Source: Bacteroidetes bacterium HLUCCA01 (GTDB lineage Bacteria > Bacteroidota > Rhodothermia > Balneolales > HLUCCA01). From it: a stretch of 64,000 nt of DNA. The DNA lies in assembly GCA_001314545.1 (NCBI GenBank), contig LIHN01000001.1, positions 526,180 through 590,179 of the forward strand, read 5' to 3'. The position numbers and the translations under genes are program-made. Shown here in pieces: positions 7,958 to 47,770 of this stretch; the first letter of the stretch is position 1; each line of letters opens with the position of its first letter. The notes under the pieces are model-generated. The model worked only from the letters and a program-made list of their open reading frames with translations. It had not been told where the DNA came from and did no database searches.

Positions 7958-10900
7958 TCAGTTCGAGCGGATGGATACAATGACGCTCACCCGTATATCC
8001 TGCGTGGTTCGGGGAAATACGCCGGTCGACTTCGGGATCAGCTGGGAGTAGCGGTACTCCAGATTGGCCTTGACCGATTGGGAAAACTGGTAGCCGATCA
8101 ACGGGGTCACATCGATGCGAATATCACCACGCTCATTCGGGTCCTGCGGGGTGTACAGTACCGGATCCCGCAACGATGGATCAAGTTGCTGACTGAGCAC
8201 TTCGTTGATGTCCTGATTGAGGCGGTAGGTGAGCTGCAGGTTCTCGATGTAGGCTACCGTCAGGCTCATATCAAGGGTATTCTGCAGTCGTGGGAAGAAC
8301 GGAAGAGTGAATCCGCGCTTGGAGAATCGGGCCGTGAAGCGCAGACTGCGGGAGTTGTTTTCAATAACGTTGGTGTTGGCCAGTGAGAAGGACGTAATGC
8401 GGGAACTGCTGTACTGCAGGTCGGTACCCAGACCCGATTTCCAGGTCAGCTGCATACCCAGCAGCGGATTGAATTGCTGTTCTACGTTGATGGTACTGGG
8501 CTGATATTCCGGCCGCTGATCCAGCGCACGGTAGGCTCCGATACTGCGCGATTGTTCGGTTCCGAAATCGGGATTGAACTGCCAGCCCAGACGGTATCGG
8601 CCGGTATACACATGGCTGAGCGTAGCCCGGTTCAGATAGCGTTCCAGAAACGGTATGCGTTTCTCCCATCCGGTCCAGGTTACGCGCCAGTTCGGCAACG
8701 GGAATGCACTGAAACCCAGCGAACCTCGCCCTTGCTGCGACATACTCACGTAGGAACGGCGGAAGTCTTCCTGCATGGCTGTTGTACCGAGCACAACCCG
8801 CCGGTCTTCGTTACGGTCTGTGATTTCCGAGGTGCCATCCATGTCATCAAAGGCGGTCTGCAGGTGGCGGCGGAAAAAATCGGTGTAACCGCCTCCAAAA
8901 GCCCAGACCGAAGAGGCTACATTACCGTTCTGATTTTCCTGGGCTGTGATGTTGTCGATGCCGGCTGTGAGGGTATTCTGGGTTGTATTGTCCCAGGAGT
9001 TGGACCAGTCCAGGGCAACCGTGATTTCGCGGACGGGCTGCAGGGTACCGCGCAGGTTGATGGCATCGGACGTGCGTATCGACTGGTTCAGCGGCAGGGT
9101 CACATCCTGGGAAGGACTGCGGATGAGCTGGGATTCATCGATTCGACTGGAAAGTCCGATCCGGTAGCCGAAGTCCGGCGAATAGCGCTCTTCATCAAAG
9201 GCCGACCAAAGGGATGAACCCCCGACGTACCCCTGCTGGGCTGCCTGAACCGAATGGGAATAGGTCATGTCCAGGCTCTGCAGACTCAATACAGACAGGA
9301 GCATGCGCCGGCCGTAAAATTCGGCCTGGTCGGCCAGGGACCGGGTTTCGGGTTCTACTGCAGGCTGGGCTTGCTGCTGGCGCTGCCGACCACGCCGGGC
9401 GCCGATGGCAACGGGTTCTTCCTCCTGCTCTGGCTGGTCGGCGGCAGCTCGCTGTTCACGTTCCTGCTGACGGCGTTGTCGCTCCCGGTTACGCTGTTGC
9501 TCGCGCGAACGTCGTTCGGCTTCATCGGCACGGAATGCCTTGTCGTAGATCGGTATTTTTCGCAACAGATCCTGAAATCGTATCGACGGATTCTGATCCA
9601 GGGAGAACTGGTTGGTCAGATTGGCTCCGAGTCCGGACCCCAGCGCGCTGTTGGTCCACCGGAACCCGCCCCGGTAGGATGCCGAATAGTTCAACCATCG
9701 CAGCGACTCAAACTTATTCAGGCGGGGTCGCCAGGTGGCCGTAAAATTCTCGTTATAATCACTGCGACGAGGCCGTACTTCGGAGTCGCTGAGGACGTCG
9801 CCCAGCACGTCAAACGAATCACGGATGGTGAAGTTATTGGAGTCAGGGATGGTGTCCTGGGCGATGAGGGCCAGATCCTGATTGGTGGTATTGGAGTAGG
9901 TCAGACTCACCACGGACAGCACGTTGTAATTGATGCTGAAATTGTTGGAGAAGGTAAAGTTGTGCTGCTGACGGAACTGGGATGGATTATTGTCGAACTC
10001 CCGGGTAGCACTCTCACCGTAGGTACGATTCAGGGTAGCACTGGACGTGATGGAGCTGGGCAGATAGGCAAACTGCAGTTCATCCAAATAGCGTAACACC
10101 GGTGTATCCGACAAAAACCCAAAGGGCCGTACTGTTCGCACGTTACGCACATTTAAGTTGTAATTCACCCCGGTGGTGTAGTTCCAGTTATCGTTGAACT
10201 CGGTGCGGAAGTCGCGCTCATTTCGGGTGTTGTAGACGTAACTCAGCCGGATATTATCCAGGGTGTACTGAGCCAGGGGTGTTCGGGAGAACCGTTTGGA
10301 AATATTGGACAGATTGATGGAGTAACTTTCACTGAAGGTCTGGATTTCACGGAGCTTGGCTGCTATCTGGGCATCTTTTTCCGCGTCGGAGAGCAACTCA
10401 TTGGCACGTACCGCGCGCTGGAAGTCTTCAAAGCGGATATCCCCCTCTCTGGGCAGGAAACGCGGCGTCTGGGTGTTGCGGCGGGCCGACAGCGTCACGG
10501 GAATGTTCCAGCCGAACCGCTCGGGAATAAACCGGTGCATGTTGACCGTTCCGGTCAGGTCGTAGCTGGTGCGGTCGAAGTTCTGGCGGTTACCCAGCTG
10601 GGAATCAATGCTGCCGAAACCATCCGTGCTCCGATTCAGTGTGGCACTGACGTTGGCAAAATCAGCCAGAACAACCTGAGAGCGCACGTTGGCGGCCCAG
10701 CCCGACTGATCTTCAAAGCCGGAAACACGGAGTTCATTGACCCACACTTCCGCATCCAGGGAGGGCACCCCGGCATACTGCAGCCCTGCCCTGTTCTGGG
10801 CTTCCGGTGCATAGGGATTCCGGATTCCTATTCCGATTTCGGTGATTCGGTTCAATGACGGTTCCCCCACCACCGCCAGGATGGTACCGGCAGGTGCATT

Positions 10901-13900
10901 ACGCACAATATCAGAGCGTTCAAACGGCTTTGAGGGATCGGCCTGAAGGTCGTTGCGCAGCTGCTTTAACTCATTGAGGGCGCCCAGAATGAGGTTCATG
11001 CTGTTTTCACCGGGTAACCAGATAGCGTCCAGATCTTCCTGAACGCCGCCCACTCCGGGCGAGAAATTGTGCAGGGTATCGGTGGGAGTGATGGGCTGAC
11101 GGTACTCGTAATAGTTGTTCTCCACGTCACTACCCAGCCGGACCACCAGTTCGATGTCGTCCCGGTTGGAGTACCCCTCCCCGTGCACAAACATCCGCAT
11201 ATTTGAGTAGTTGGTCAGGTTCAGGCCGGTCGGGTACACCCGTTTCATCAGGCGAACATCGCCGGCACGCAAATCCTCAACCCGCATGAGCAGGGACTGC
11301 TCATTGGCCAGGACTTCCTGCTGCTGCCCGCGGTTGACCGAGCGGATAGCACCTTCCGGAACCCGGTACGGGACCGGTCTTCGGTTCGAGTTCTCTTCAA
11401 TATTGATGGTGGCGACCTCGAAAATGGTATTGGTATTCCCCTGATTGCCCACTTCCTCCGCCTTGCGCCACTGATTCCCGACCAGTTCCAGGGTGGCAAA
11501 CCGCATGGTGAAGGGCTGTCGATATCCGGTCATCCACATACGGATGTGGGTGACACGCTCCAGGTTTTCAATATTGCCAACCCGCTCAATGAAATCGCGC
11601 AGGGGTATCTGCACCTGATACCACCGGTTCCACTGCTCCTCTCCGTCAACTTTGTCGATGATGTAGTTATCGCCGATCTGAAGCGCTGTAGTATCCGCCG
11701 GATTGAAGGAAACCCGATACTGAAAAAAGGCATTTTCGGTGTTCACGAAGGCCGGATTGATGAGTCCCTCCGAATCAGGGCGGTTGGTCACGGCCCGCTG
11801 CCCTTCACCGGACTGCGCGTTGCCCTCGTGAAAGCCGAACATGCGATGGAAGCGCTGATGCAGGGGCAGATCGCGAACCTCCGGACTGTCAAAATACACG
11901 AAATCGTCTCCGGACGGATCGGCTTCAATGCGCGCCAGCATTTCGGGCTCGTCGATGTAAAGGGCCCGCATCTGCTGTAGAAAATCAGCAAAGAGCACCG
12001 TCTCGTTCAGCCCGTCAATGCCGCCGGTGTTCGGCGCACCGTCCAGTCCCACATCTTCCAGGGCGATGGTTTCCTGGGAAAACTGGCCGTCCAGATCGGG
12101 AATATTGCGGTAAATATAGGATCGGCCCGCCTGGTCAGGCCGCAGATTACCGCTTCGCTCGGCAAGACCATCTTCGGTGTTGTTCTCGTTGTTGGGAATC
12201 ACATCTTCGGTAATCACCCCGATGTCAAAGTATATAACCCCGTCGTAATCGGCGAAGTCCTGACCGGTGGGCTGGCGACCATCCGGCAGAATGGGCTGCA
12301 CCCAGAATTCAAGGAACTCAATGTTATTTTGCGTCAGGTCATCCAGTCCGCTTGGCAGGGTAGCCGTGAAACCACCCCACATTTCCTCCGGACGGTCCTC
12401 CAGGAAGTCTTTGAGTGCCGGATTGTAGTTGTAGGGTCCTCGCTTGGTCGGATCGTAATGAATGTCGAGCGTTTGCAGGATGTTGTCCTGGGTGAGTACG
12501 TCCCGGTCAGGGAATACATCGGTGACCTGAACCGGCAGCGACTCGACGGTACGGGCAGCATCGGTGATACGCCCCAGACTGACCGGTATGGTGTACCAGG
12601 AGAACTTGGCTCTGAGGTCACTGCGCTGGCTGCGCGAGGGAATGGATTGGTCGGCGTTGACCATATCGGCATCCAGTGCGGGCAGGGCAAACGGAGCGGC
12701 CGCGAGGTTCCACCGGCCCGGACTTAAAAACGATACCGAATTCTTCGAGCCTTCGAAATCGTCAATGAACGAGACACCAAGCTCCTCGTCCGGGTAGAGA
12801 ATACCGCGATCGATGGCGCGCTGAACGGCGTTGGTCTGGGCTACACCCGGACGAATCTGAGCGAACTCTCCGGTAAAGGAGATACTGGACTCGGCCCGGG
12901 TCTGTAGCAGGGGTATGCGGTCGATGGCGCGGGTGAGCCAGGGAGCATCAAACTCAGCCCGGGCATCAAAGCCCAGTACCGCGTTGTTGATGGGCTCCTC
13001 TCCCACCGGAATTTTATCCTGCAGGGGACGGTCGCGCTGGCGGAAGTACGTACTGCCCAGTTGAATATCCGGGCTGAGGGTGTATTCAGCTCGAAGACCG
13101 GTAAACGTAGTTTGCTGAATCTGCAGGAACTGGTTGCTTTCGTAATCAATGCGGATGTCCTGCCCGGGTGCCAGGTAGGTGCGGTTGGTAATCAGGATAT
13201 TACCCAGGGAATAGTCAACCTCGTAATCTAGCCCCTCGGTGAGCTCCCTTCCGTTGGCAGTAACCCTGACGGAGCCTTCAACCAGCTGAAATCCCAGAAA
13301 ATAACTGTCAGACACCCCGCCTTTTGACGTACCCCGGATCCGGTAGATGTTATTTTTTGAACTGTTGGCTGCATTGTTGCGCGTGGTGGTGTACAGCTCG
13401 GTAAAGGCCAGCCGTTCAATAGCCTCTTCACGCTCCGATGCCGGCAGCTGCGATGCATTCAGAATGTCAATAATGCGCTGGCCGAATGGCTCCAGATACG
13501 GGAATACAATACGACCGTCGCGCGAATTCAGGGTTCCGGTTCCGAAGTCAATTTGATTGTCGGCCCCCACCTGCCCCTGTGAACCAACCCGGTCAAGCCC
13601 CAGATCCTGCAGCAAAATGTTGGCAAGGCCCGGCAGACTGAACTGCTCCTGGGTTCCCTGGGTGTAGAAAATATTCAGATCCAGCCCGTCACTGGTCAGG
13701 TTGGTGGTGTTCAGCGAGTACACGTTCCGCATCGTCAGCGGCCAGGCTCTGGAACTGGGCGTCAGGCCGATGGGTCGCAGCAGTTTGAGAAACAACCGCT
13801 GCGTATCACCCTGGTTTACATCGCCCACATAAATAATCTGGTTGGTTTGCGGATCACGGTAGGAAAAGCTCACCGCCAGGGCTTGTCTGGAATTCAGCGG

Positions 13901-15460
13901 AGATGACAGGGATATATAACCCAGGGCCTCGTCCAGCGTGTAGTCAACGCCTTCGCGCAGAGGCACGAAGATACCGGAGGCAAACTCATCGGCCGATACG
14001 CCTAAATCATCGGCTGAAATACTTGCCGATTCAGGCCGGAACTGATCGATGGTGGCGTCATCGAAGGGGTCATCGGATTCGTCGGGCGGCAGAAATTGTC
14101 CGCCGAATTGCCGGGTTCCGTAGTCGAGCAGGGCAACGGCCGTACGCTGACCTTCCTGCGGGGAGAGGGTTTCATTGAGTACCCAGACTTCAATGTTGGT
14201 AATATTGAACAGGCGACGGGTGAGGGTCGGGTCGGAAAGATTGTTTTCAAACTCCTGGCGGGCAAAGAAATCCAGAAAGAAGTGGCGGTTGTCTTCATAG
14301 GCGTTGGGACGGATGTCAATCTGCTGATCGGTGGAGCCGCCGGAGACGGTCTGCGATTCAGAATTACCTTCCTGCTGGGATACAATACCCGTCAGCTCCA
14401 GGGGACCCATCTGAAACCGGGATTTAATGCCGAAAAGGGCGCCACCCCCTCTGACCAGAGAGTTTCCGGTATCCATGGATACGTTTCCGAGTTCTACGGA
14501 TTGCAGAATTTCATCTTCGTAGCCGGTGTAGACGATGCTCACTCGGTTTTCAAAGTCGAAGGTACGCTCGGTGTCCCAGTCGGTGCGGATGTTCAGCTTG
14601 TCGCCGATGGTACCCTGTATGTTGAGCCGCAGGTTCTGGTTGAAGGTAGGATCAATGCGCCGCTGCTGATCGGGCGGCACGGCGGGATCTTCGGTTTCCT
14701 GGATAGATACGCCCAGGTTCATGTTGGCATTGCCTGTTACGCGCAGGTTGACTTCGGGTCGACCAAAAATGGTGGTAAATGCCGAACGCTGGCCTCCGGG
14801 GATGTTGATTCTGAAATCCAGCAACCCTCGCTGCAGGTCTTGTCGTCGTTGGGATTCCTGCACGATGCGCGCCCAGTTATCCTGCTTGCCGCGCTGCCGC
14901 TCCCGGATCAGATACTCCTGCAGGCTGAGCTCGACCGGGTAGCCGAGGGTTATCCCCCCCAGTTCACGTCGCAGGGTGTAATTGCCCAGGCTGTCGCGCT
15001 CGGTGACAACCTGCATATCCCGCAACGGGATTTCAGCAAGCCGCGAGCGCGTGCGGGTGATGCGAAGCGGAGAGTAGGTGTGCTTCGGACCCGGAATAAA
15101 CCGGGCAGACGTACTATCTGCCGTCGTTGCGGTTGTATCGGACGGGGTTGACGTAGTGTCTGAAACTGCCTGAGCTGGTTGAGGCAGGGCCAGGGTGTCT
15201 GCGTGCAGGGACTCCGTGCGGGGCTGTTGCAGGGCTATCAACGCCCCTGCCGGACCAGTTTGTGTGCCCGGATCAACGGCGAGGCTGACTGTATCATGCT
15301 CCCGGGCAACGTCCGACAGACCGCCGGAGGGGTCCGTCAATAGCGCTGCAGGGACATAAAGACTGCCTGAAGCCTGTACATGGGTCGGCAACACAACACA
15401 TCCTGCCACAATTACCACACACAGGGCAGTAAACGTACGTACGAGCTGCAAAGAGAGCAA
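7958..15460 (-). CDS. sprA: SprA, type IX secretion system outer-membrane translocon
   Basis: A giant beta-barrel pore of 2,500 residues that exports proteins across the outer membrane in type IX secretion and gliding systems. A signal peptide is visible (LVRTFTALCVVIVAGC to about residue 31). The N-terminal half carries SprA-typical blocks: LNIQGTIGDKLNIRTDWD, YEDEILQSVELGNVSM, SLVRGGGALFGIKSRFQMG and FLDFFARQEFE. The C-terminal half is a long run of amphipathic beta strands. The first codon is TTG at 15460; an in-frame stop lies 15 bases upstream and no ATG is available before the signal peptide. A charged low-complexity insertion occupies about residues 1975-2037. No other T9SS gene is in the window. 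Confidence 0.93.
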   Translation of the reverse strand: MLSLQLVRTFTALCVVIVAGCVVLPTHVQASGSLYVPAALLTDPSGGLSDVAREHDTVSLAVDPGTQTGPAGALIALQQPRTESLHADTLALPQPAQAVSDTTSTPSDTTATTADSTSARFIPGPKHTYSPLRITRTRSRLAEIPLRDMQVVTERDSLGNYTLRRELGGITLGYPVELSLQEYLIRERQRGKQDNWARIVQESQRRQDLQRGLLDFRINIPGGQRSAFTTIFGRPEVNLRVTGNANMNLGVSIQETEDPAVPPDQQRRIDPTFNQNLRLNIQGTIGDKLNIRTDWDTERTFDFENRVSIVYTGYEDEILQSVELGNVSMDTGNSLVRGGGALFGIKSRFQMGPLELTGIVSQQEGNSESQTVSGGSTDQQIDIRPNAYEDNRHFFLDFFARQEFENNLSDPTLTRRLFNITNIEVWVLNETLSPQEGQRTAVALLDYGTRQFGGQFLPPDESDDPFDDATIDQFRPESASISADDLGVSADEFASGIFVPLREGVDYTLDEALGYISLSSPLNSRQALAVSFSYRDPQTNQIIYVGDVNQGDTQRLFLKLLRPIGLTPSSRAWPLTMRNVYSLNTTNLTSDGLDLNIFYTQGTQEQFSLPGLANILLQDLGLDRVGSQGQVGADNQIDFGTGTLNSRDGRIVFPYLEPFGQRIIDILNASQLPASEREEAIERLAFTELYTTTRNNAANSSKNNIYRIRGTSKGGVSDSYFLGFQLVEGSVRVTANGRELTEGLDYEVDYSLGNILITNRTYLAPGQDIRIDYESNQFLQIQQTTFTGLRAEYTLSPDIQLGSTYFRQRDRPLQDKIPVGEEPINNAVLGFDARAEFDAPWLTRAIDRIPLLQTRAESSISFTGEFAQIRPGVAQTNAVQRAIDRGILYPDEELGVSFIDDFEGSKNSVSFLSPGRWNLAAAPFALPALDADMVNADQSIPSRSQRSDLRAKFSWYTIPVSLGRITDAARTVESLPVQVTDVFPDRDVLTQDNILQTLDIHYDPTKRGPYNYNPALKDFLEDRPEEMWGGFTATLPSGLDDLTQNNIEFLEFWVQPILPDGRQPTGQDFADYDGVIYFDIGVITEDVIPNNENNTEDGLAERSGNLRPDQAGRSYIYRNIPDLDGQFSQETIALEDVGLDGAPNTGGIDGLNETVLFADFLQQMRALYIDEPEMLARIEADPSGDDFVYFDSPEVRDLPLHQRFHRMFGFHEGNAQSGEGQRAVTNRPDSEGLINPAFVNTENAFFQYRVSFNPADTTALQIGDNYIIDKVDGEEQWNRWYQVQIPLRDFIERVGNIENLERVTHIRMWMTGYRQPFTMRFATLELVGNQWRKAEEVGNQGNTNTIFEVATINIEENSNRRPVPYRVPEGAIRSVNRGQQQEVLANEQSLLMRVEDLRAGDVRLMKRVYPTGLNLTNYSNMRMFVHGEGYSNRDDIELVVRLGSDVENNYYEYRQPITPTDTLHNFSPGVGGVQEDLDAIWLPGENSMNLILGALNELKQLRNDLQADPSKPFERSDIVRNAPAGTILAVVGEPSLNRITEIGIGIRNPYAPEAQNRAGLQYAGVPSLDAEVWVNELRVSGFEDQSGWAANVRSQVVLADFANVSATLNRSTDGFGSIDSQLGNRQNFDRTSYDLTGTVNMHRFIPERFGWNIPVTLSARRNTQTPRFLPREGDIRFEDFQRAVRANELLSDAEKDAQIAAKLREIQTFSESYSINLSNISKRFSRTPLAQYTLDNIRLSYVYNTRNERDFRTEFNDNWNYTTGVNYNLNVRNVRTVRPFGFLSDTPVLRYLDELQFAYLPSSITSSATLNRTYGESATREFDNNPSQFRQQHNFTFSNNFSINYNVLSVVSLTYSNTTNQDLALIAQDTIPDSNNFTIRDSFDVLGDVLSDSEVRPRRSDYNENFTATWRPRLNKFESLRWLNYSASYRGGFRWTNSALGSGLGANLTNQFSLDQNPSIRFQDLLRKIPIYDKAFRADEAERRSREQQRNRERQRRQQEREQRAAADQPEQEEEPVAIGARRGRQRQQQAQPAVEPETRSLADQAEFYGRRMLLSVLSLQSLDMTYSHSVQAAQQGYVGGSSLWSAFDEERYSPDFGYRIGLSSRIDESQLIRSPSQDVTLPLNQSIRTSDAINLRGTLQPVREITVALDWSNSWDNTTQNTLTAGIDNITAQENQNGNVASSVWAFGGGYTDFFRRHLQTAFDDMDGTSEITDRNEDRRVVLGTTAMQEDFRRSYVSMSQQGRGSLGFSAFPLPNWRVTWTGWEKRIPFLERYLNRATLSHVYTGRYRLGWQFNPDFGTEQSRSIGAYRALDQRPEYQPSTINVEQQFNPLLGMQLTWKSGLGTDLQYSSSRITSFSLANTNVIENNSRSLRFTARFSKRGFTLPFFPRLQNTLDMSLTVAYIENLQLTYRLNQDINEVLSQQLDPSLRDPVLYTPQDPNERGDIRIDVTPLIGYQFSQSVKANLEYRYSQLIPKSTGVFPRTTQDIRVSVIVSIRSN

Positions 15461-30226: not shown

Positions 30227-32668
30227 ATGATCAAGTCCTTGCTCAGAGGAGCGCTGTTACTGGTACTGGTAGTCATCGGAATAGTGTCTGTGGCCGTTTA
30301 CTGGACCCTGTACCGGCCCGTACTTCCTTATGATACCACGGTGAACCTGCAGGGTCTGGAAAGCGAGGTTGCCATCTACTGGGATGAGTATGGTGTTCCC
30401 TCCCTGCATACCGACTCCATGAGCGATATGTACCGGGCTCTGGGATGGCTGCATGCCCGCGACCGCCTGTGGCAAATGACCGTAGCTCAGCTTTTTACCG
30501 AAGGTCGCTTTGCCGAATTTCTGGGCGAGGATGCCCTCGAACTGGATCGATTCAGCCGAACCGTCGGATTCTGGCGCATAGCCGGTGAGCTGGAAGCCCG
30601 GCAGAGTCCGCAAACCATGGCCTACCTGCAGGCCTATAGTGACGGTGTCAACCAGTTTGTCCGCGACCATGAAAAATCGCTGCCCGTAGAATTCAGCCTT
30701 GTGGGTATTCATCCGCCCGAGTGGACACCGCGTCACAGCCTGGCCCTCTCCCGTTTATTGGGATGGGAACTGAATGTCTCCTGGTGGACCAAGGTCATGC
30801 TGGGTTACCTGCAGAACTACATCGATGAAGCCACCCTTCGCGAGCTCTTCCCCACCTGGGAGCCCGGAGCTCCCCGAAATCTGGATCCGGCAGCAACCCG
30901 GCAGCTGCTGACATCTGCGATGGTACCACTGCTGCAAACCGACATGGACGCTCGGTCACGGATCGGCAACCAGGGAAGCCACATCGGCTCGAACGCCTGG
31001 GTATCTGCCGGCAGCAAAACCTCAACCGGATACCCCCTGCTCGCCGGCGATCCGCACCTGGGACTGGATATGCCCGGAAAATGGTACGAGGTCCATCTGC
31101 ATGTCAACGGAAAACACCTCTCGGGAGCCACCATCGCCGGAATTCCCGCTGTAATTATGGGACAGAACGAAGAGCTGGCCTGGACGTTCACCGCGCTGAT
31201 GGGCGATGATACCGACTTCTACCGCGAGCTGGTACATCCCGGGGATTCTTCGCGCTACGCCCTTGAAATCAACCAATCCGACACAACCTGGGCCCGGTTT
31301 CAAACCATTCGTGAGGTCATTAGCCTTCAAGACGGCCCGGAAGTACTGCACACTGTGCGACAAACCCAAAACGGTCCGGTTATCAATGATATCTACCCCA
31401 ATCAGGAACTGGTATCCGGTGAGCTGATCAGCATGCGCTGGGCAGGCTTTGAGGCCACCGGTGAACTGGAAGCCCTCATGCGTCTGGGCTGGTCGACCGA
31501 CATGGCCGGTTTTCAGCAGACACTTGAAGACTTCGGGGTTCCGGCACTCAACATCATGTATGCCGACCGCACCGGGAATATCGCGATGTTCACGGCAGCC
31601 CACCTGCCCGTTCGCCGTCAACCAACCCTGCTGCTTCGCGAAGGCTGGAATCCCGCACACCGGTGGACATCCTTCATTCCCCGTTCACATCTGCCCCGGG
31701 TAATCAATCCCCCGTCCGGGTTCATCGCCAATGCCAACAATCCGGTCGTCAGCGACAACTACCCCTACTACCTAACCGCTTTCTGGGAGCCGGATTCGCG
31801 GATACGCCGCATCACCGATGTCCTTAGCAGCAGCGAGCTGCATACCCCGGATCTATTTATGGAGCTGCAGAACGATGTCTATTCGAACCAGGCTGCCGAC
31901 CTGCTGCCCGTTATACTGCCGGTACTGGAGACTGGTAATGACGGACGGTTTGACACCATTCTGCCCTACCTGAAAAACTGGGACTACCGGTACACTACCA
32001 CCGCAACAGCCGCCTCCCTGTACGAACTCTTTTTCCTGAATTTTGTGGAACTGGCCTTCAAACCCTACCTGGGTGAAGCCGCTTACCAAAATTTCATACG
32101 CCTTGAAAACTTTCCCGTACGGGTTACCACGCGCATGCTGCGCAATGGTTCGGTTTGGCTGCGCGATCAGAACGGCGATACCGCCTACCGGGACTCCCTG
32201 ATAGTTCAGGCCATGGACATAACCCGTCAGCGACTGACAAGAGAGTTCGGAGCTGATCCGGCCGGCTGGCAATGGGGCAACCTGCACACCGTTACCTTCT
32301 CTCCCATCATTTTCCGCGAGGCAGCGGCTGATTCAACAGCACCCCTTGTGCTGAAATCCATCGTCCAGACCCTTCTGAGTAAAGGTCCCTACCCGGTTGG
32401 CGGTCATGCGATGAGCGTAAATAATACGCAATACAGCTGGGAACAACCTTTTGCTCAAATACTGGGCGCCTCCATACGCCGGATTGTGGACCTGGGTGAA
32501 CCCGGACGGTCGCTGTCGGTACTGCCTACCGGTCAGTCGGGGCACGCACTTTCACCGCACTTCGGCGACCAAACAGATTTGTGGATATCCGGCAAATACC
32601 GCATCTTACAACATTACGATTTCACTACAGACGCCGTTCAGCGAAGAACGACAATACTCAAACCATAA
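30227..32668 (+). CDS. Penicillin acylase family protein (Ntn hydrolase)
   Basis: An 813-residue precursor of the penicillin amidase family, enzymes that cut amide bonds of penicillins, acyl-homoserine lactones or related N-acyl compounds. An N-terminal membrane anchor or signal (about 7-28) is followed by the alpha-chain region with WLHARDRLWQMTVAQLF. The conserved cleavage site and nucleophile come next, S255 in IGSNAWVSAGSKT, then LLAGDPHLGL and GATIAGIPAVIMGQNEELAW. Autocatalytic cleavage before S255 is expected from the family. The natural substrate cannot be told. A kinase gene starts 5 bp later, giving an operon of at least five genes. Confidence 0.92.
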   Translation: MIKSLLRGALLLVLVVIGIVSVAVYWTLYRPVLPYDTTVNLQGLESEVAIYWDEYGVPSLHTDSMSDMYRALGWLHARDRLWQMTVAQLFTEGRFAEFLGEDALELDRFSRTVGFWRIAGELEARQSPQTMAYLQAYSDGVNQFVRDHEKSLPVEFSLVGIHPPEWTPRHSLALSRLLGWELNVSWWTKVMLGYLQNYIDEATLRELFPTWEPGAPRNLDPAATRQLLTSAMVPLLQTDMDARSRIGNQGSHIGSNAWVSAGSKTSTGYPLLAGDPHLGLDMPGKWYEVHLHVNGKHLSGATIAGIPAVIMGQNEELAWTFTALMGDDTDFYRELVHPGDSSRYALEINQSDTTWARFQTIREVISLQDGPEVLHTVRQTQNGPVINDIYPNQELVSGELISMRWAGFEATGELEALMRLGWSTDMAGFQQTLEDFGVPALNIMYADRTGNIAMFTAAHLPVRRQPTLLLREGWNPAHRWTSFIPRSHLPRVINPPSGFIANANNPVVSDNYPYYLTAFWEPDSRIRRITDVLSSSELHTPDLFMELQNDVYSNQAADLLPVILPVLETGNDGRFDTILPYLKNWDYRYTTTATAASLYELFFLNFVELAFKPYLGEAAYQNFIRLENFPVRVTTRMLRNGSVWLRDQNGDTAYRDSLIVQAMDITRQRLTREFGADPAGWQWGNLHTVTFSPIIFREAAADSTAPLVLKSIVQTLLSKGPYPVGGHAMSVNNTQYSWEQPFAQILGASIRRIVDLGEPGRSLSVLPTGQSGHALSPHFGDQTDLWISGKYRILQHYDFTTDAVQRRTTILKP

Positions 32669-32673
32669 CACTA

Positions 32674-33579
32674 ATGGAAGTTTGGCTCGGCATTGACGCG
32701 AGTGGATCCCGTTCGGTTTTACTCGCTGTAGACAGCGCAATGAATATCATTCACAAAGAGCAGGGCGGCGCACTCCACGCACGCATGATGAAACTGGACG
32801 ACCAGGTTTCGGGAACGCTGTTGCTGATTGAAAACTTTGCCAGCCGGCACAAAAACGCTGAAATTAAAGGTCTGTGTATCGGGATTGCCGGTGGTGGCCG
32901 GGAAGTGGAGCAGAATCTGCTTCGCACTGAGCTGGAAAAATTCTATCCCGATTTCCCCATTTTAGTCACCTCGGATGCCCATGTTGCCCACGCAGAAGCG
33001 TTCAAAAACGGCGATGGAATCCTGATTATCACCGGTACGGGCAGTATTGTGCTCGGTCGCAAAAACAAACGATGGGACCGGGCCGGGGGATACGGTTTTC
33101 TGATTGGCGATCCGGCCGGGGGATACCGCATGGGCCAGGAATCTTTGTATGCTATTTGTACTGCCATGGACGGGGGACGGTCAACGGCCATGGAGGATAT
33201 CATCCGTGAGCGCTTCTCCATCGGGTCGCGCGAAGACCTCATCCTGAAAATCTATGACAATACCATTGCCCCGGCGGAGGTAGCTCCGCTCCTGCTGGAA
33301 GCGGCTGAACAGGGTGACGACATTGCCCGCCATATCATTACCGATAATTGTACCAAGCTCGCCTCGCAGGTAGCACTCGCCTCGGAAACACTGCAATACA
33401 CCGTCACGCCCGTGTGTGTAATCGGTTCCTTATTTGAAAATACCTACTTCCGTGATATACTCACATCCTGCCTGGTTGACGCTCTGGGCGATATTAAATG
33501 GATTCACAATATCAACGAACCGGCGATGGGGGCCTGCCGGCTGATTATCAGCAACGCGAAATCCGTAGCGGTACAATAA
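32674..33579 (+). CDS. BadF/BcrA-type ATPase, GlcNAc/MurNAc kinase-like
   Basis: A 301-residue member of the actin-like sugar kinase group that includes N-acetylglucosamine kinase and the GlcNAc/MurNAc kinase MurK. I start it at the ATG at 32674, 5 bp after the acylase stop; the frame is open further upstream but overlaps that gene. Motifs: LGIDASGSRSVLLAVD (phosphate 1), LCIGIAGGGRE, VTSDAHVAHAEAF, IITGTGSIVLGR (phosphate 2), GGYGFLIGDPAGGYRMG and VIGSLFEN. An amino-sugar substrate is inferred mainly from the GH3 gene 95 bp downstream, which would release GlcNAc. Confidence 0.82.
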   Translation: MEVWLGIDASGSRSVLLAVDSAMNIIHKEQGGALHARMMKLDDQVSGTLLLIENFASRHKNAEIKGLCIGIAGGGREVEQNLLRTELEKFYPDFPILVTSDAHVAHAEAFKNGDGILIITGTGSIVLGRKNKRWDRAGGYGFLIGDPAGGYRMGQESLYAICTAMDGGRSTAMEDIIRERFSIGSREDLILKIYDNTIAPAEVAPLLLEAAEQGDDIARHIITDNCTKLASQVALASETLQYTVTPVCVIGSLFENTYFRDILTSCLVDALGDIKWIHNINEPAMGACRLIISNAKSVAVQ

Positions 33580-33674: not shown

Positions 33675-36629
33675 ATGCAACATCCACACAGACCTTTCCG
33701 GAGAAAGGTATTGCTGTCTGCTATCTTACTGGTTCTGGCCAGTGTAACCATCGCTGCCATTGCACGCTTTCAGTATGAAACACCTTTGCCGCTGAGATCG
33801 GCAAATACGATGCAGGTTGTGCCGGAAACCAGTGAGCGAACCTATGTAAACGAACAGGTGCCGGCGGAGCGTGTGGTCTCCGCTGTGGATCTCGATTCGT
33901 TGATAGCCGGCCTGTCCCCCCGTGAGAAACTGGCACAGCTGGTAGTAGTCTGGGCCCATGGGCGGTACCACAGCAATGACTCCGGGTATCTGGATGAATT
34001 AAACCATCTGGTAGCCGTTGAAGGTATAGGCGGACTTATGTTTTCCCGTGGTAATATCTATGATCAGGCTCTGCTGACCAATAAACTGCAGTCCGTTGCA
34101 CCAATTCCCCTGTGGATCACACAAGACATGGAGTTCGGAGCGGCAATGCGTGTTAATGCAGCTACCCGTATCACCCCGGCTATGGGCGTAGCCGCCACGG
34201 GAAATGAAATGCACGCATGGCAGAAAGGTCGCATTACCGCCCTGGAGGCCAAAGCGCTTGGTGTGCATCAGATTTTTGCTCCTGTAGCCGATATCAATAA
34301 CAATCCGGATAACCCGGTAATTAATACCCGTTCCTTTTCCGAAGATCCCCATAAGGTTGCGCAATACGCAACTGCGTTTATCCATGGGGTACAGTCAACC
34401 GGTCTCATGGCCACGGTCAAGCATTTTCCGGGTCATGGCGATACCAACGTCGACTCACACTACGCACTCCCCGTCCTTTCGCTCAGCTGGGAACGCCTGA
34501 ATGAGTTTGAGCTCAGCCCGTTCAGAGCAGCCATACAGGCCGGTGTAGGGAGCGTAATGAGCGCACATATTGCTTTCCCGGAGCTTGCCGAAGAGCCGCG
34601 AAGGCCCGGCACACTCAGCCCGGCTATGCTGAACGGTGTACTGCGGGACTCCCTTGGGTTTGAGGGCCTCATCGTCACAGATGCCCTGGAAATGCGGGGT
34701 ATATCGGCCAATTATCGTCCCGGTGAAGCGCTGATTATGGCAATACAGGCCGGTGCTGACATCTTACTGGCGCCGCGCAATGTACTGCACGCACTGGATG
34801 AGGCCGAAAAAGCCCTGCGAAACGGCGATTTGTCTATGGAGCAGGTCGACCGTGCCCTGAACCGGTTTCTGTCGGTCAAGCGCCAGTATGGTCTGTTTGA
34901 AGCAGCTCCTGTGGATCTCAACGCTATTGACGCCCACATCGCGACACGACCGAATCTGGCTGCAGCCGCAGCCATCGCCCGTGAATCGCTGACCTTGCTT
35001 AAGAATGAGCGTTCGGTCCTGCCTCTGCAATCCGACGCTCAGCGCATCCATATCATCAGTGTAACCAATGCCACGCAGGACCGGGCCGGAGGTGAGCTGG
35101 AACGGTTTATGCGCAGATACTCCAGGCAGGTCGGCAGTGACGGGCTGGATATGCGAAGTACCCGTGAGGATGTTGTACGGGCAGTGCGCAACGCCCGACG
35201 GGCTGATGTGGTTATCCTGGCCCTTCCTACTTCGGTTGGAGGACACCTGCGCAGTAACCATCCAGCCCTTGAAAACGGTCTTTTCCGCCAGCTTCAGCAG
35301 CTCCCACGGCCGGTCGTAGCCGCTGTTTTCGGAAACCCGTATATCCTGGAAGAAGTGGCTTTCGCACGTGCCCACGTGCTGGGCTGGGCCGCCACGGAGG
35401 GCCAGTATGAAGCTTTTGCACATGCCGCTTTTGGTGCGTCGGCTTTTACCGGCACGCTGCCGGTATCCATTGGTTCTATGTACGAGCGCGGCAGAGGGTA
35501 CTATCTGCCGAAAATCAAACTCCGGGCTGACCTGCCTGAAAGTGCCGGATTACACAGCGATAGTTTACGTCAGATCGACCAGATTGTCCGTCAGGCCATT
35601 GAACGTGAGGTATTCCCGGGGGCCAGCGTTGCCGTTGTCAGCGATGGCGTGCTGGTTTACAACAAAAGTTACGGTTACCATACCTATGACAAATTAGTAC
35701 CTGTTGAAAATGATCATGTGTTCGACCTTGCTTCCATCACCAAGGTTATGGCCACAACGCTGGCTTCCATGAAACTTGTAGATGAAGGACGACTGCAACT
35801 GGATCAGCCGGTCGCCAATTTTTTTCCGGAATTCGCCGTTGACGACAAAGCCGGAATTACAATCCGACATCTGTTGCTGCATACCTCCGGGCTGCCCGCC
35901 TTCCGGGTTTATGTTGATTCCATACAATCGCGTGAACCACTCATACAGGCCATACTCAACGAACCGCTGATTAACACCCCCGGGGAGGTCTATGTGTACA
36001 GCGATCTCGGCATGATTACGCTGGCCCTGATTATCGAGCAGATAACCGGCACCGACCTGAACTCCTATCTGCAGGAAACAATATATGGCCCCCTCGGGCT
36101 GTCGCGAACTACCTTCAATGCACACCAGCTCGGAGAACAGGTATTGCAGGAGGTCCTCCCTACGGAAATCGATACCGTTTTCCGTAATGCTGAAATCCGC
36201 GGCTATGTACATGATGAACGGGCTTACTACCTGGACGGTGTTGCAGGCCACGCCGGCTTGTTTTCAACGTCTGAGGAGCTCGCTGTACTGGTTCAGCTGC
36301 TCATCGATAAAGGCACATACGGCGGCGTTCGGATGTTCAGTGAGGCCGTTGCAGACACCTTCACCGCACGCCAACCACCACTGGACCGCCGGGGACTCGG
36401 GTTTGACGCTAAATCACTGACCGGGTTTACAAGCGCCGGCCAACGCTCCGGTTCACAGACATACGGGCATCTCGGTTTTACCGGAACCAGTTTCTGGATT
36501 GATCCGGAAACGAAAACCGGTGTAATTTTGCTTACCAACAGAACCTATCCTTACCGGGGTGAAACCTCGGGAATTGCCCGCGTCAGGGCAGCCGTTGCGG
36601 ATGCAGTATTTGGAAGTTATATACAATGA
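33675..36629 (+). CDS. GH3 beta-N-acetylhexosaminidase fused to a class C beta-lactamase-like domain
   Basis: A 984-residue predicted envelope protein with a signal or anchor (about 10-30) and three parts. A GH3 barrel (about 70-410) has the NagZ-type catalytic loop KHFPGHGDTNVDSHYALP (K249, H250) and nucleophile D336 in VTDALEMRG. A GH3 second domain follows (about 430-625). A serine beta-lactamase or DD-peptidase-like domain (about 640-980) has SxxK at S687-K690 (ASITKV), Y775-S776-D777 in place of YxN, and HLGFTG as the KTG-like box. The GH3 part should release GlcNAc from muropeptides. The C-terminal part may act on stem peptides or esters; true beta-lactamase activity is doubtful. Such fusions are known in Bacteroidota. 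Confidence 0.92.
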   Translation: MQHPHRPFRRKVLLSAILLVLASVTIAAIARFQYETPLPLRSANTMQVVPETSERTYVNEQVPAERVVSAVDLDSLIAGLSPREKLAQLVVVWAHGRYHSNDSGYLDELNHLVAVEGIGGLMFSRGNIYDQALLTNKLQSVAPIPLWITQDMEFGAAMRVNAATRITPAMGVAATGNEMHAWQKGRITALEAKALGVHQIFAPVADINNNPDNPVINTRSFSEDPHKVAQYATAFIHGVQSTGLMATVKHFPGHGDTNVDSHYALPVLSLSWERLNEFELSPFRAAIQAGVGSVMSAHIAFPELAEEPRRPGTLSPAMLNGVLRDSLGFEGLIVTDALEMRGISANYRPGEALIMAIQAGADILLAPRNVLHALDEAEKALRNGDLSMEQVDRALNRFLSVKRQYGLFEAAPVDLNAIDAHIATRPNLAAAAAIARESLTLLKNERSVLPLQSDAQRIHIISVTNATQDRAGGELERFMRRYSRQVGSDGLDMRSTREDVVRAVRNARRADVVILALPTSVGGHLRSNHPALENGLFRQLQQLPRPVVAAVFGNPYILEEVAFARAHVLGWAATEGQYEAFAHAAFGASAFTGTLPVSIGSMYERGRGYYLPKIKLRADLPESAGLHSDSLRQIDQIVRQAIEREVFPGASVAVVSDGVLVYNKSYGYHTYDKLVPVENDHVFDLASITKVMATTLASMKLVDEGRLQLDQPVANFFPEFAVDDKAGITIRHLLLHTSGLPAFRVYVDSIQSREPLIQAILNEPLINTPGEVYVYSDLGMITLALIIEQITGTDLNSYLQETIYGPLGLSRTTFNAHQLGEQVLQEVLPTEIDTVFRNAEIRGYVHDERAYYLDGVAGHAGLFSTSEELAVLVQLLIDKGTYGGVRMFSEAVADTFTARQPPLDRRGLGFDAKSLTGFTSAGQRSGSQTYGHLGFTGTSFWIDPETKTGVILLTNRTYPYRGETSGIARVRAAVADAVFGSYIQ

Positions 36630-37330
36630 CAAGCTGGAAAACCTTACTGAACCGATCCTATGTACCCTACAGCAGGTCGCCACGGGCCTGCGCCGTCGTA
36701 GGACAATCCGGCAGCATCTATTACGGAGTCCGCATCGAAAGCGCCTCCTTCCCGCTGACCATTACCGAGTATCAGTGTAGTATTTTTTCGTGCTTGTCGA
36801 CCGGAGACAAACCGGTGCGCCTGCTGCTTCCGGCAGATTCGCCAGCGGTGCCTGCCTTGTGGACCGATACCTACAAGCTGGATGTCCGGTTTGCCGGGGA
36901 ACTGCCCGACCTGCCCGCAGGTGTTGTCCAGCTTGAGGGAGAATTGGATATCGCGTCAAAGCTGAAATCCTTGCAGGAATACTGCGTTGTGGGTGAAAGT
37001 AAATTCCCGGTTGCCTGCGTAATCAAAACCGGGCAGGGCCGATTTATTTCCGGGGTGAACGTTGAACTCAATGATTGGCAGGCTGGCCTGTGTGCGGAAC
37101 GTATTGCCCTGGCGAAGGCTCTGGCTTCAGGAGTGAGTACGTTTCACGAAATCCATATTACGGCAGCCAAAGGCGATTTCATAAGTCCCTGCGGGGCATG
37201 TCGGCAGGTACTCGTTGAGCATATGCCCTATCAAAAGGTAGTACTCTACCACCCCGACGGAACGATGTCGGAGCACACGCCAGCCGGCTTGTTGCCTAAT
37301 TTCTTCAATGGAAAATCCATCATAAGTTAA
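36626..37330 (+). CDS. cdd: Two-domain cytidine deaminase with degenerate N-terminal copy
   Basis: Deaminates cytidine or deoxycytidine. The C-terminal domain (about 105-234) has all zinc-site residues of the CAE-type enzyme: C156 and catalytic E158 in GLCAERIAL, and C189 and C192 in SPCGACRQV, with the same 33-residue spacing as the B. subtilis enzyme. The N-terminal region (about 1-100) resembles a second deaminase fold (SYVPYSRSPRACAVVG, YGVRIESASFPLT). It has ITEY where LCAE should be and no PCxxC, so it is probably catalytically dead. E. coli CDA has the opposite order, active domain first. The ATG overlaps the upstream stop (ATGA). Confidence 0.85.
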   Translation: MTSWKTLLNRSYVPYSRSPRACAVVGQSGSIYYGVRIESASFPLTITEYQCSIFSCLSTGDKPVRLLLPADSPAVPALWTDTYKLDVRFAGELPDLPAGVVQLEGELDIASKLKSLQEYCVVGESKFPVACVIKTGQGRFISGVNVELNDWQAGLCAERIALAKALASGVSTFHEIHITAAKGDFISPCGACRQVLVEHMPYQKVVLYHPDGTMSEHTPAGLLPNFFNGKSIIS

Positions 37331-37337
37331 TTCTTCC

Positions 37338-38003
37338 ATGCTTACCTATCTGGCGGCTATCGATTATCAGAACCTTGATAATCCACTGTTTCTCAAGTCT
37401 TTTGCCGAAGCAGCCAAACAAGTGAAAATTAAAAGGGCGGTCATCGTGCATGCAGACAGCGATTACACCGAGCGACTCATTCAAACCGGAATGATGCGCG
37501 AGGATGCCGTTAAGCGCAGTATGCAGGATTTAAATCACCGTTTGGTGAGTTTTTTCGCCGACTTCGGACTGGCCTGTATCGGTATTAACGGATTTCAGCG
37601 GGGCACAGTGCGTCTGTCGTCTGAGGGCGAACTTGCCGTTGACAAGGCGTTCATGCAGCGACTGCCCGAGGGTACGGTTACCGTGCTTTCTGCCCTGGTA
37701 AAGGGGCCAGACGGAGAACCTGTTGCCGTCAGACTCAGTGAGCTGCTCCACGCCGTCCGCCAGCAGTTGAATGCGGAGCAAACCTGCATATTTACCCTGG
37801 ATGCCGCTGACCAAATCATCACAAAAAGCCACAATAACCCCGAAATTGAGCTCACATTCTCACAAATAATGGGTTCTTCTTTGTCAGATAAGATTCCCTC
37901 CGAATTCATTGATCATCCAGTGGAATCAACTCTGTGCAAACCATTAATTAACAACAGCTTAAATAAATTCTCCAGCCTCGCCAAAATCATAAACAATGCT
38001 TGA
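37338..38003 (+). CDS. Unrecognised protein, possible degenerate amino-acid-kinase fold
   Basis: A 221-residue protein I cannot name with confidence. The order of segments resembles acetylglutamate kinase: a strand-helix start (TYLAAIDYQNLDNPLFLKSF), RAVIVHADSDYTERLIQTGM where kinases have VHGGGP, and then NHRLVSFFADFGLACIGINGFQ. VTVLSALVKGPDGEPVAVRL and a CIFTLDAADQII strand come next. The glycine-rich phosphate motifs are missing, so ATP use is doubtful. It starts 7 bp after the deaminase gene and ends the operon; a terminator-like hairpin follows. The kinase resemblance is a by-eye inference. Confidence 0.55.
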   Translation: MLTYLAAIDYQNLDNPLFLKSFAEAAKQVKIKRAVIVHADSDYTERLIQTGMMREDAVKRSMQDLNHRLVSFFADFGLACIGINGFQRGTVRLSSEGELAVDKAFMQRLPEGTVTVLSALVKGPDGEPVAVRLSELLHAVRQQLNAEQTCIFTLDAADQIITKSHNNPEIELTFSQIMGSSLSDKIPSEFIDHPVESTLCKPLINNSLNKFSSLAKIINNA

Positions 38004-44806: not shown

Positions 44807-47770
44807 TCATGCGTTCAATAGCCGCTTTGCTACATTGGACATTAAAAACAAATCGAAATCACGAACTACTTTGTCGATGAGTACTTTAAGCGCCTCGTAC
44901 TGACCTTCCCCAAGGTGATTATCGGCAAAATCGCTCAAACCATCAACATCCTGTATTACCAGTAGGTCGGTGATTATCTGACGGAGTTCTTCAGGCAGAG
45001 CCTCTACATGACGCACCAGCGCAGTGGTATCATCTTCCGGCACGCTGATATCGCCACCATCAGAAAGTACCTCTTTATATTCAAAAGTTACACCGGCATT
45101 TACATGAAGTGACCGGAGTAAATCGGGTTCCTTGAAGGGTTTCAGGATATAATCCGTAAAACCGGCTTTAATAAGTGCATCACGTTTGTCGTCAAATCCA
45201 CTGGCGGTGAGCGCAATGACCGCTACCGTTTTGCCCCGGGGCATTTTCCGGATTAACGACATAGCCTTCACACCGTCCATGACAGGCATGATAATATCCA
45301 TTATGACAACATCAAATTCTTGCCGGGAGAACAAATCAACAGCCTGCTGCCCGTCAGCCGCCTCGGATATGCTGGCACCAACACGCTCCAGCAGCAGACG
45401 AACTACCGTCCGGTTCAGGTCTACATCGTCAACCACAAGCACACGAAACGGCCTGGGAGAGGCAATCGTTTTTACGCGTGTGAACTTGTCGGCTTTTTTA
45501 CCGGTAGGATGTTCTACAATTTGCATTGGCACCGCAAAACCGAATAAAGCGCCCTGACCGAGTACACTTCGGACGGTGACATCCCCGCCCATGAGATTAA
45601 CTATCCGTTTCGTTATAGCCAGCCCCAGACCGGTTCCCTTGATATCCGAGTTCTTAGCCTGCTGAAACGGTTCAAATACCAGATGGAGGTCGTCTTCGGG
45701 TATGCCCCTTCCCGTATCTTCCACCTCCACGCTTATAAGTTGATCACGGGTACCGGTTGATGTGTTGTCAGTGAGTGAAAAACGAACCGAGACATGACCC
45801 TGATCGGTAAATTTCACGGCATTACCAATCAAGTTTATAAGAACTTGTGAAAATTTGGACTGATCGATCTGTACAGCAGGATTAATTTCAGGATCCACGG
45901 ACACCCGCAGGTCGACCCCTTTTGATGCTGCTTTCAGCCGAAACATTTCCACCACATCCCGGATGATTTCGTGGAGATCTGCCGGTTCGTTTTGAAGTTC
46001 CATTCTGGAGGCTTCAATCTTGGAAATATCCAGAATGTCGTTGATCATCGTGAGCAGGTGGTTACCACTTCGGTACATATTGTCTACATATCCGCGGTGA
46101 ACCTCGCTGACGGTCGGGTCGTTGGTCATAATCTGCGCATAGCCCAGTATGGCATTGAGCGGCGTGCGCAGTTCATGGGTAATCCGGGCCAGAAAAGCCG
46201 ACTTAGCCTGATTGGCGTCTTCGGCCGCTTTTCGGGCACTGACCAGCTCATCAATTCGCTCAGCTACCAAAATAACACCGTTGCGGGAACCATCTTCATT
46301 TCCCCAGGGATGAATGGCCAGACGCAGGTAGATCACATTATGTTCGTCCAGACGAAGCTCTTCCTCAGCGATATGCAGAACCTCTCCCTGAAGGCCCCGA
46401 TAGCATAAGTCCTGCCAGTGCGAGGGGAGCTTCTGGTAGATTTCAAAGAGCTTTTTACCGGTAAGTTTGATCCGGCCCGGTCCGTACGACTGCACCCAGG
46501 TTTTGCTGTAAACCACGAATCGCAGGTCGTGATCAAGGATTGCCATAGGCACCGGAGCGTTGTTAACCACTTCCCCCAGCAGCTCCCGTTCACTGTCGAG
46601 CTGTTTTTTGATCTCCATCTGTGTGGTCACATCCCTGGCAACAACAAAAATAATTTCCTGATCGCGCTGAACAATTCTGTTGGCTGTAATTTCAACGGTT
46701 AATCGCATCCCGTCTTTACACCTCCAGGTGCGCCGGTCAAGAACACTCTCACCGTCTTCGATGACACGATCGATGTAGGCCGTAATATCCTGCATGGAGT
46801 GATCCACAAAATCGGCCATTTTCAGATTAAGTGCCTCATCGCGTGTGTAGCCCAGCAGCCTGCAGAACGCTTCATTTACGTCTGTGATAGCATACGTAGC
46901 CGGATTCATCATGTAAATGGCTTCAACAGAACTTTGGATGGCGGTGCGATAGCGTTCTTCGGAGTCGCGGTAGGCCTGTTCGGCGAGTTTACGCTCGGTA
47001 ACATCGGTTATAATACCATCTATGCGAGGATTCTGTGGATCGGATACTACCCAGGCACGATCGCGCAGCCATTTGATATCACCTTTGGGGGTAATGAGCC
47101 GATATTCGGCCTCAGCATACCCCTTTTTACGAAGCTCATGGGTAGCCATCTCCAGTTTATGCAAATCACCACCATGAACCATTTTCTTCCAGGAGACCGT
47201 TTTATTGCGGAAATCCTCCTCATTCATGTCAAATACCAGGCGCGTTGCCTTGTTGACATACAGAATATCACGGGTTCTGGAGTCCATGGAATACACCACA
47301 TCATCAATGCTGGATAATACCGCATCCAGTCTGACTTCTGCGGCAGCAAGGGTATTCTCAATGACGATGCGCTCGGAAATGTCCCGGAGTTGTACCAGTT
47401 TCACCTGTCCGCCGGAAGCGGCGTCTGGCATCAGAGAAATATGCTCGGAAATATAGATGCCCGATCCATCCTCGCAGATATGCTCGGCATCTGTGCCGGA
47501 AGTCAGTTGCCAGTTACCCGATTTCCCACGGTCTTTAGGTGCCAGCAGTATATCGGCATGCTGACCCAGAACCGAATCCGGCTTATACCCATACAGTTTG
47601 GTGAAGGAAGGGTTTGCAAATAACACACGATTTTCATCATCCAGCAAAAGAACCGCATCTTGCAGATGTGCAACAATGCCCGATAGAAGATGTGTATGAT
47701 TTTTACTCAGAGCCACGAATTCGGATTTCAGAAGAGTTAAGCTACTGTGCCTGCCAGCAATCAGGCGCAC
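44807..47770 (-). CDS. Multi-PAS hybrid histidine kinase
   Basis: A 987-residue cytosolic kinase with no clear membrane helix. Four PAS units are visible: about 30-135 (AVLLLDDENRVLFANPSFTKLYGY), 145-260, 270-385 and 400-505. HisKA follows with H532 in ARITHELRTPLNAILGY, then HATPase with LINLIGNAVKFT, VEDTGRGIP and GTGLGLAITKR. A receiver has phospho-acceptor D825 in VVIMDIIMPVMDG and the lysine in DYILKPF, and a roughly 65-residue helical tail closes the protein. The GTG at 47770 is the longest start; others downstream are possible. It lies 28 bp from the next kinase gene, suggesting a phosphorelay. Confidence 0.9.
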   Translation of the reverse strand: MRLIAGRHSSLTLLKSEFVALSKNHTHLLSGIVAHLQDAVLLLDDENRVLFANPSFTKLYGYKPDSVLGQHADILLAPKDRGKSGNWQLTSGTDAEHICEDGSGIYISEHISLMPDAASGGQVKLVQLRDISERIVIENTLAAAEVRLDAVLSSIDDVVYSMDSRTRDILYVNKATRLVFDMNEEDFRNKTVSWKKMVHGGDLHKLEMATHELRKKGYAEAEYRLITPKGDIKWLRDRAWVVSDPQNPRIDGIITDVTERKLAEQAYRDSEERYRTAIQSSVEAIYMMNPATYAITDVNEAFCRLLGYTRDEALNLKMADFVDHSMQDITAYIDRVIEDGESVLDRRTWRCKDGMRLTVEITANRIVQRDQEIIFVVARDVTTQMEIKKQLDSERELLGEVVNNAPVPMAILDHDLRFVVYSKTWVQSYGPGRIKLTGKKLFEIYQKLPSHWQDLCYRGLQGEVLHIAEEELRLDEHNVIYLRLAIHPWGNEDGSRNGVILVAERIDELVSARKAAEDANQAKSAFLARITHELRTPLNAILGYAQIMTNDPTVSEVHRGYVDNMYRSGNHLLTMINDILDISKIEASRMELQNEPADLHEIIRDVVEMFRLKAASKGVDLRVSVDPEINPAVQIDQSKFSQVLINLIGNAVKFTDQGHVSVRFSLTDNTSTGTRDQLISVEVEDTGRGIPEDDLHLVFEPFQQAKNSDIKGTGLGLAITKRIVNLMGGDVTVRSVLGQGALFGFAVPMQIVEHPTGKKADKFTRVKTIASPRPFRVLVVDDVDLNRTVVRLLLERVGASISEAADGQQAVDLFSRQEFDVVIMDIIMPVMDGVKAMSLIRKMPRGKTVAVIALTASGFDDKRDALIKAGFTDYILKPFKEPDLLRSLHVNAGVTFEYKEVLSDGGDISVPEDDTTALVRHVEALPEELRQIITDLLVIQDVDGLSDFADNHLGEGQYEALKVLIDKVVRDFDLFLMSNVAKRLLNA

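Follow-up and report, generated by a model that had tools for sequence, protein, structure and literature searches.

In the genome of Bacteroidetes bacterium HLUCCA01 (class Rhodothermia, order Balneolales), an open reading frame (ORF) at 36626..37330 on the forward strand of the stretch analysed here (64,000 nucleotides of contig LIHN01000001.1, hereafter the window) encodes a cytidine deaminase (CDA) of 234 residues in which a dead half precedes an active half, as indicated by the ORF, Pfam and NCBIfam matches and a structure model. This CDA is a real, widely conserved, order-reversed two-domain enzyme, and its fold, its loss and retention of residues and its conservation across the class come directly from calculation. 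Taken as a whole, the reading that we consider quite likely is that of a housekeeping cytidine/deoxycytidine deaminase whose two-domain chains form a dimer with the shape of a tetramer (a pseudo-tetramer), the dead half of one chain completing the active site of the other in trans. It should be an ordinary nucleoside-salvage enzyme, predicted to dimerise in this way.

The ATG start codon of the gene shares bases with the stop codon of the preceding ORF (ATGA). Its product divides into a dead N-terminal domain (residues 1-92, 36626..36901), a linker lying between both domains of the model (about residues 93-104, 36902..36937) and an active C-terminal domain (residues 105-234, 36938..37327), all on the forward strand. 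The C-terminal half (C-half) matches PF00383 with 47.7 bits (cut-off 25), and the N-terminal half (N-half) alone matches PF08211, which we take to be the Pfam model for the second domain of E. coli-type CDAs, with an E-value of 4.1e-8 and 33.9 bits (cut-off 25). Against the NCBIfam model TIGR01354 (cut-off 113.65 bits), the N-half alone gives an E-value of 2.5e-10, under the curated cut-off, and the C-half alone scores 91.5 bits; the whole protein reaches 128.3 bits as two summed stretches, passing the cut-off thanks to the contribution of the dead half. The N-half alone thus shows a similarity far beyond chance. The two-domain model TIGR01355 gives the whole protein 63.3 bits, below its cut-off of 275, and the N-half matches positions 185-234 of that model, the E. 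coli-type dead part. A search with the protein finds a single place in the genome of the window, which is 98% complete. TIGR01354 matches that genome twice, and PF00383 matches it in three places: the CDA gene, a frame of 175 residues, presumably a tRNA adenosine deaminase from its appearance, and a frame of 407 residues.

A preliminary description, made from the letters of the window, had credited the C-half with all zinc and catalytic residues at Bacillus-like spacing, and this is borne out. The C-half gathers in one domain the CAE and PCxxC motifs and the substrate Phe, Asn and Glu: F127, the substrate-binding pair of N145-V-E147 (37058..37066), C156-A157-E158-R159 with a zinc ligand and the catalytic Glu (37091..37102), and P188-C189-G-A-C192 with two zinc ligands (37187..37201). 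The step from C156 to C189 is 33 residues, equal to that from C53 to C86 in B. subtilis CDA, positions that we assume for the comparison; Cys53 and Arg56 are named in the titles of CDA structures in the PDB. The N-half has no PCxxC, and the ITEY that the description placed at the CAE position is correct to within one residue, T47-E48-Y49-Q50 (36764..36775) standing in the C-A-E-R columns. In the same half R36 stands in the Asn column and S18 in the Phe column.

Both halves nevertheless have the deaminase fold. A full-chain AlphaFold2 model built with 53 family members has a mean predicted local distance difference test score (pLDDT) of 96.0 and a predicted template modelling score (pTM) of 0.93. 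Its N-half runs through a helix (4-10), two strands (21-26 and 31-35), a helix (48-57), a strand (63-68), a helix (77-83) and a strand (86-89), and the C-half repeats this series and then adds one strand and a short helix. Compared with solved one-domain CDAs, the C-half gives Z-scores of about 20, and sequence identity in the best-scoring rows is 30-37%. A separate model of the N-half (pLDDT 92.7) superposes on the one-domain enzyme EfCDA with Z 9.4 and a root-mean-square deviation (rmsd) of 2.9 Å over 92 residues. CDAs fill the first 25 rows of the comparison, and the best Foldseek rows agree. The alternative that residues 1-100 adopt some other fold is ruled out by the N-half-alone model and these structure matches (Z 9.4; Foldseek), so that the fold proposed for the N-half stands on the full model, the separate model and the matches together. 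The complete chain can be aligned collinearly with the two-domain CDAs of E. coli, Vibrio and Klebsiella over 193-195 residues (Z 16.7-17.1, rmsd 3.1-3.5 Å), and therefore both halves pack similarly; against the Arabidopsis enzyme (6l08), 195 residues align with Z 14.6 and rmsd 3.5 Å.

The arrangement is widespread in the class. A search with the CDA protein matched 4/4 genomes of the family, 113/128 of the order and 212/244 of the class, and a survey of relatives found the dead half ahead of the active half in 83 of 84 loci, which represent 83 different genes with that of the window among them. The order is claimed within this set of loci (L001-L084), which were picked as best matches plus a spread, with no random draw, and not for every matching genome of the class; the sequence retrieved for L042 is too short to show the N-half, the start of L043 is garbled, and L004 is the same gene as L045. 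A first motif filter passed 79 loci and a second 77, with L033, L039, L058, L018 and L043 falling to the motif patterns though both of their halves are visible. A longer linker between the halves was seen in L032, L034, L038, L040 and L041, whose proteins have 265-305 residues rather than 234 (L038 without a clear start).

Residues were counted in 77 dead and 77 active halves (window's own included), in 34 one-domain CDAs and in 5 E. coli-type enzymes, all five of them gammaproteobacterial sequences, and are given in B. subtilis numbering. The residues that act within their own domain (cis) are confined to the active halves: Phe24 is found in 0/77 dead and 76/77 active halves, and Asn42, Glu55, Cys86 and Cys89 each in 0/77 dead and 77/77 active halves. 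Position 53 is Cys or His in 3/77 dead and 77/77 active halves, those tabulated among the active halves being Cys, and His in 5/5 E. coli-type enzymes. In the CDA of the window the Cys and Glu of C-A-E-R and the P-C-G-A-C motif are of a kind kept in 77/77 active halves. The aromatics lent to a neighbour (trans) follow the opposite pattern, with an aromatic at Tyr21 in 77/77 dead and 10/77 active halves and Tyr or Phe at Tyr48 in 76/77 dead and 0/77 active halves. In the one-domain CDAs, where a single domain has to serve in both roles, every counted cis and trans site is retained by 33 or 34 of the 34 sequences. The division recurs in the E. coli-type enzymes: their active halves have the cis sites in 5/5 and Y21 and Y48 in 0/5, and their dead halves the cis sites in 0/5 and Y21 and Y48 in 5/5. 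E44 is common to all kinds (75/77 or better), with 77/77 among the active halves. Across 51 conserved columns, the dead-minus-active difference is correlated between the Rhodothermia and E. coli kinds (Spearman 0.40, p 0.003).

These sites can be placed in the window's CDA by way of EfCDA, the active site of which is ringed by one neighbouring subunit through Y23, A48 and F50 and by a second through F127 and L132 (PMC11007441). Y15 (36668..36670) is the loop 1 Tyr expected at the neighbouring site, corresponding to EfCDA Y23, and is Tyr or Phe in the 77 dead and 10 active halves counted above. Loop 2, E38-S-A40-S-F42 (36737..36751), is likewise expected at the neighbouring site, A40 and F42 corresponding to EfCDA A48 and F50, and its position 42 is the one with Tyr or Phe in 76/77 dead and no active halves. 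In the C-terminal loop L222-L-P-N-F-F227 (37289..37306), where P224 is invariant and L222, L223 and F227 are at least 90% conserved in alignment A1, the last Phe corresponds to EfCDA F127 and is expected at the site of another active half (PMC11007441).

From these correspondences we infer the dimer, the trans completion, the substrate and the activity. The two-domain chain would dimerise into a pseudo-tetramer shaped like the CDAs of B. subtilis and E. coli, with each catalytic site in a C-terminal domain, where zinc would be held by C156, C189 and C192, E158 would act as the proton shuttle, and F127, N145 and E147 would contact the substrate. Loops 1 and 2 of the partner chain's dead N-terminal domain (Y15, A40, F42) may then complete the catalytic site, as may F227 from the partner's C-terminal domain. 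After the duplication the two copies would have split the work, the dead copy retaining the trans aromatics and the active copy the cis residues, and the dead copy is probably kept because its residues complete the active site of its partner. The proposal in the preliminary description that the dead half might complete a neighbouring site is thus strengthened in the part that concerns residues, since the two expected aromatics are kept (77 and 76/77), and both the dimer interface that it also proposed and the trans completion stay at the level of a prediction. In the active half, D150-W151 (37073..37078) replaces the Ser/Ala-Tyr of loop 2, with Trp in 77/77 and Asp in 58/77 active halves and neither in the other groups. 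The pair is a putative plug of the dead pocket, suggested because loop 2 of the active half would face that pocket in the tetramer; W151 and D150 would fill it, with D150 pairing with R36.

The layout can be set against three known kinds of deaminase. Like the two-domain CDAs (D-CDA: E. coli Cdd, Vibrio 4eg2, Klebsiella 6k63, Arabidopsis 6l08; TIGR01355), the window's CDA has two CDA folds per chain, one of them without zinc residues, aligns with them in order, and distributes cis and trans residues over its two halves in the way seen in the five gammaproteobacterial sequences. It departs from them in its domain order, with the dead half at 1-92 and the active half at 105-234, in its three-Cys zinc set (C156, C189, C192) where E. 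coli has one His and two Cys, in its length (234 residues vs 294 in E. coli), in its TIGR01355 score far under the cut-off, and in the dead half's Arg, not Tyr, for Asn42 together with the invariant Trp of the active half. The active-first order of the E. coli enzyme, stated in the preliminary description, was checked on E. coli K-12 cdd, and that of the plant enzyme fits the sequence matches of Arabidopsis 6l08, where the C-half corresponds to residues 30-133 and the stronger of two N-half matches to residues 202-254. With the one-domain CDAs (T-CDA: EfCDA, B. subtilis, human; TIGR01354), the C-half shares the zinc and catalytic residues, their equal spacing, the three Cys ligands and the structural likeness already given; unlike them, the protein has two domains and two CDA folds in its 234 residues rather than the roughly 130 residues of one domain, and its active half has lost the aromatics of loops 1 and 2, which T-CDA subunits lend to their neighbours. 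The APOBEC3G-type DNA deaminases also place an inactive domain first and an active one second, and according to one abstract the C-terminal domain is the only one known to deaminate (PMC2646141). They belong to another family and act on DNA, and the likeness is probably one of layout only. The CDA appears to work like a D-CDA, yet it fails the order, the zinc ligand set and the family model of that type.

Several observations weigh against the proposed division of labour. The split is not perfect throughout: Ala54 persists in 60/77 dead halves, the aromatic at Y21 is still present in 10/77 active halves, and the A46 site, which is position 40 of the window's protein, is Ala or Ser in 40/77 dead and 34/77 active halves, the backbone alone being reported to bind there. 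When 8 named sites are left out, the likeness of the two fused kinds is not significant (Spearman 0.23, p 0.13), and therefore the shared pattern lies in these sites and not in whole domains. A scan of six neighbours of the CDA recognised none as a pyrimidine-salvage gene, and context therefore says little on its function. One could suppose that the dead half is a mere scaffold for dimerisation and stability with its loops outside the active site, much as a passage on EsCDA-2 describes the dead half in E. coli as a structural dimerisation scaffold (PMC11007441). We regard this as unlikely, as scaffolding alone gives no reason for dead halves to retain Y21 and Y48 (77 and 76/77) and for active ones to lose them (10 and 0/77). 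Less likely still is a re-use of the dead pocket in which R36 and E38 would bind a ligand, conceivably a regulator. The motif R36-I-E38 (36731..36739) does set an Arg for the substrate-binding Asn beside a kept Glu, and this Arg occurs in 75/77 dead halves and in 0/77 active halves, 0/34 one-domain CDAs and 0/5 of either E. coli-type half, with the Glu kept in 75/77 dead halves; R36 may, however, do no more than form a pair with D150, a residue of the active half that by analogy would lie in the dead pocket (Asp 58/77, Trp 77/77). The compound proposal of two independent mirror-order fusions, each dividing cis and trans roles between its copies, with the near-invariant Arg36-Glu38 of the Rhodothermia dead half as a ligand or regulatory site, not plugged by Asp150-Trp151, seems to us very improbable. 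Trans completion of the active site by the dead half is retained as the preferred explanation.

On the origin of the fusion, the preliminary description had suggested an event independent of that in E. coli, and the trees divide on this point. A tree of all 67 core columns unites the dead halves of Rhodothermia and E. coli (99/95), nesting those of E. coli within those of Rhodothermia, and weakly places the active halves of E. coli among their Rhodothermia counterparts (66/96); constraining the dead and active halves of Rhodothermia to form one group carries a penalty of 22.2 log units and narrowly escapes rejection (p-AU, from the approximately unbiased test, 0.078). Once 15 cis, trans (active-site/interface) and neighbouring columns are removed, the dead halves of Rhodothermia join the active halves of the same class (99/96), and the test rejects none of three alternatives, namely dead with E. 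coli dead halves (p 0.255), dead with E. coli active halves (p 0.21) and active with E. coli active halves (p 0.281). The outcome thus changes with the motif columns, and the tree program warns of few columns. A duplication separate from the E. coli fusion is favoured, if unsettled, and we lean towards it because the signal joining dead halves to dead halves sits in columns under convergent loss; our confidence was lowered because the E. coli active halves join the Rhodothermia active halves weakly. The competing account, in which the dead halves of both types are homologous and one ancestral fused gene was rearranged (e.g. by tandem copying and end loss) so that its order flipped, is a minority view that we hold to be possible. 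It draws on the 67-column groupings and the cost of holding the Rhodothermia halves together, on an earlier tree in which dead halves from the window's own order only joined the E. coli dead halves (86/89), and on the match of the N-half to the dead part of TIGR01355. On the other side, without the 15 columns the dead-with-dead grouping falls 9.2 log units behind, short of rejection, the loss of the same sites in both dead halves is a setting for false grouping, and the phylum sample outside the class holds, among the matches listed, mostly one-domain frames. A reversed order needs no new topology, since either of two copies related by a near-twofold may lose its site.

In that phylum sample TIGR01354 matches 212/296 genomes, the frames listed outside the class being mostly of 130-231 residues, or one domain, and 7/9 of the re-examined genomes outside the class match. 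One Bacteroidota genome outside the class (G412, L140 1360-2271) carries a CDA of 303 residues in the E. coli order, active then dead. A scan of a wider contig collection with the CDA protein found no relative; a consensus query of the same collection found at least seven loci, six in Bacteroidota records and one in Planctomycetota. Three of the six listed Bacteroidota records belong to Rhodothermia, Rhodothermales or Salinibacteraceae, and the ORF at the Planctomycetota locus is an ordinary one-domain CDA. The dead-first CDA was not found outside the class, other phyla being thinly sampled. No relative was found in viral contigs. Among phage records 11 match, and the two that cover 94% use two pieces on one 351-base stretch, which reads as both CDA halves aligned to one single domain; among plasmid records 32 match and none covers 80% of the CDA query. 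No report of a dead-first CDA of this kind was found among the papers listed in a literature search that lay mostly outside subscription journals.

The neighbourhood, taken as about 1.5 kb to either side of the CDA, was compared across 30 loci of the order, and all three genes described here lie on the forward strand. The upstream gene (33675..36629), the stop of which overlaps the CDA start, encodes a protein with GH3 glycoside hydrolase and beta-lactamase-type serine hydrolase domains (Pfam) and stands beside the CDA in 21/30 loci. Directly downstream, a protein of 221 residues (37338-38003) accompanies the CDA in 22/30 loci; Pfam gives nothing noteworthy for it (best E 0.13), and by eye it may resemble acetylglutamate kinase. 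A small histone H1-like Hc1 protein (PF07432, 38177-38350), the start of which is our reading of an ORF listed from 38084, lies near the CDA in 29/30 loci. Elsewhere in the window are a BcrAD_BadFG-family protein just upstream of the GH3 gene (32581-33579), an ORF of 2500 residues on the reverse strand (7958-15460) with an SprA_N domain (PF14349, 363 bits) of a motility/secretion protein, and a hybrid sensor kinase of 987 residues, also on the reverse strand (44807-47770), with PAS domains, HisKA, HATPase_c and a response-regulator domain.

For annotation, the consequence is that a one-domain, tetramer-type model accepts this protein through the added score of its dead half. If the proposed reading is correct, Rhodothermia possess a housekeeping enzyme whose pseudo-enzyme half persists across a bacterial class, and the ledger of residues would explain its retention, each copy having kept mainly the residues that the other lost. 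Together with the E. coli type it would form a mirrored natural pair, in which it may be asked how duplicated oligomeric enzymes divide their labour and whether the order of the halves is a matter of chance.

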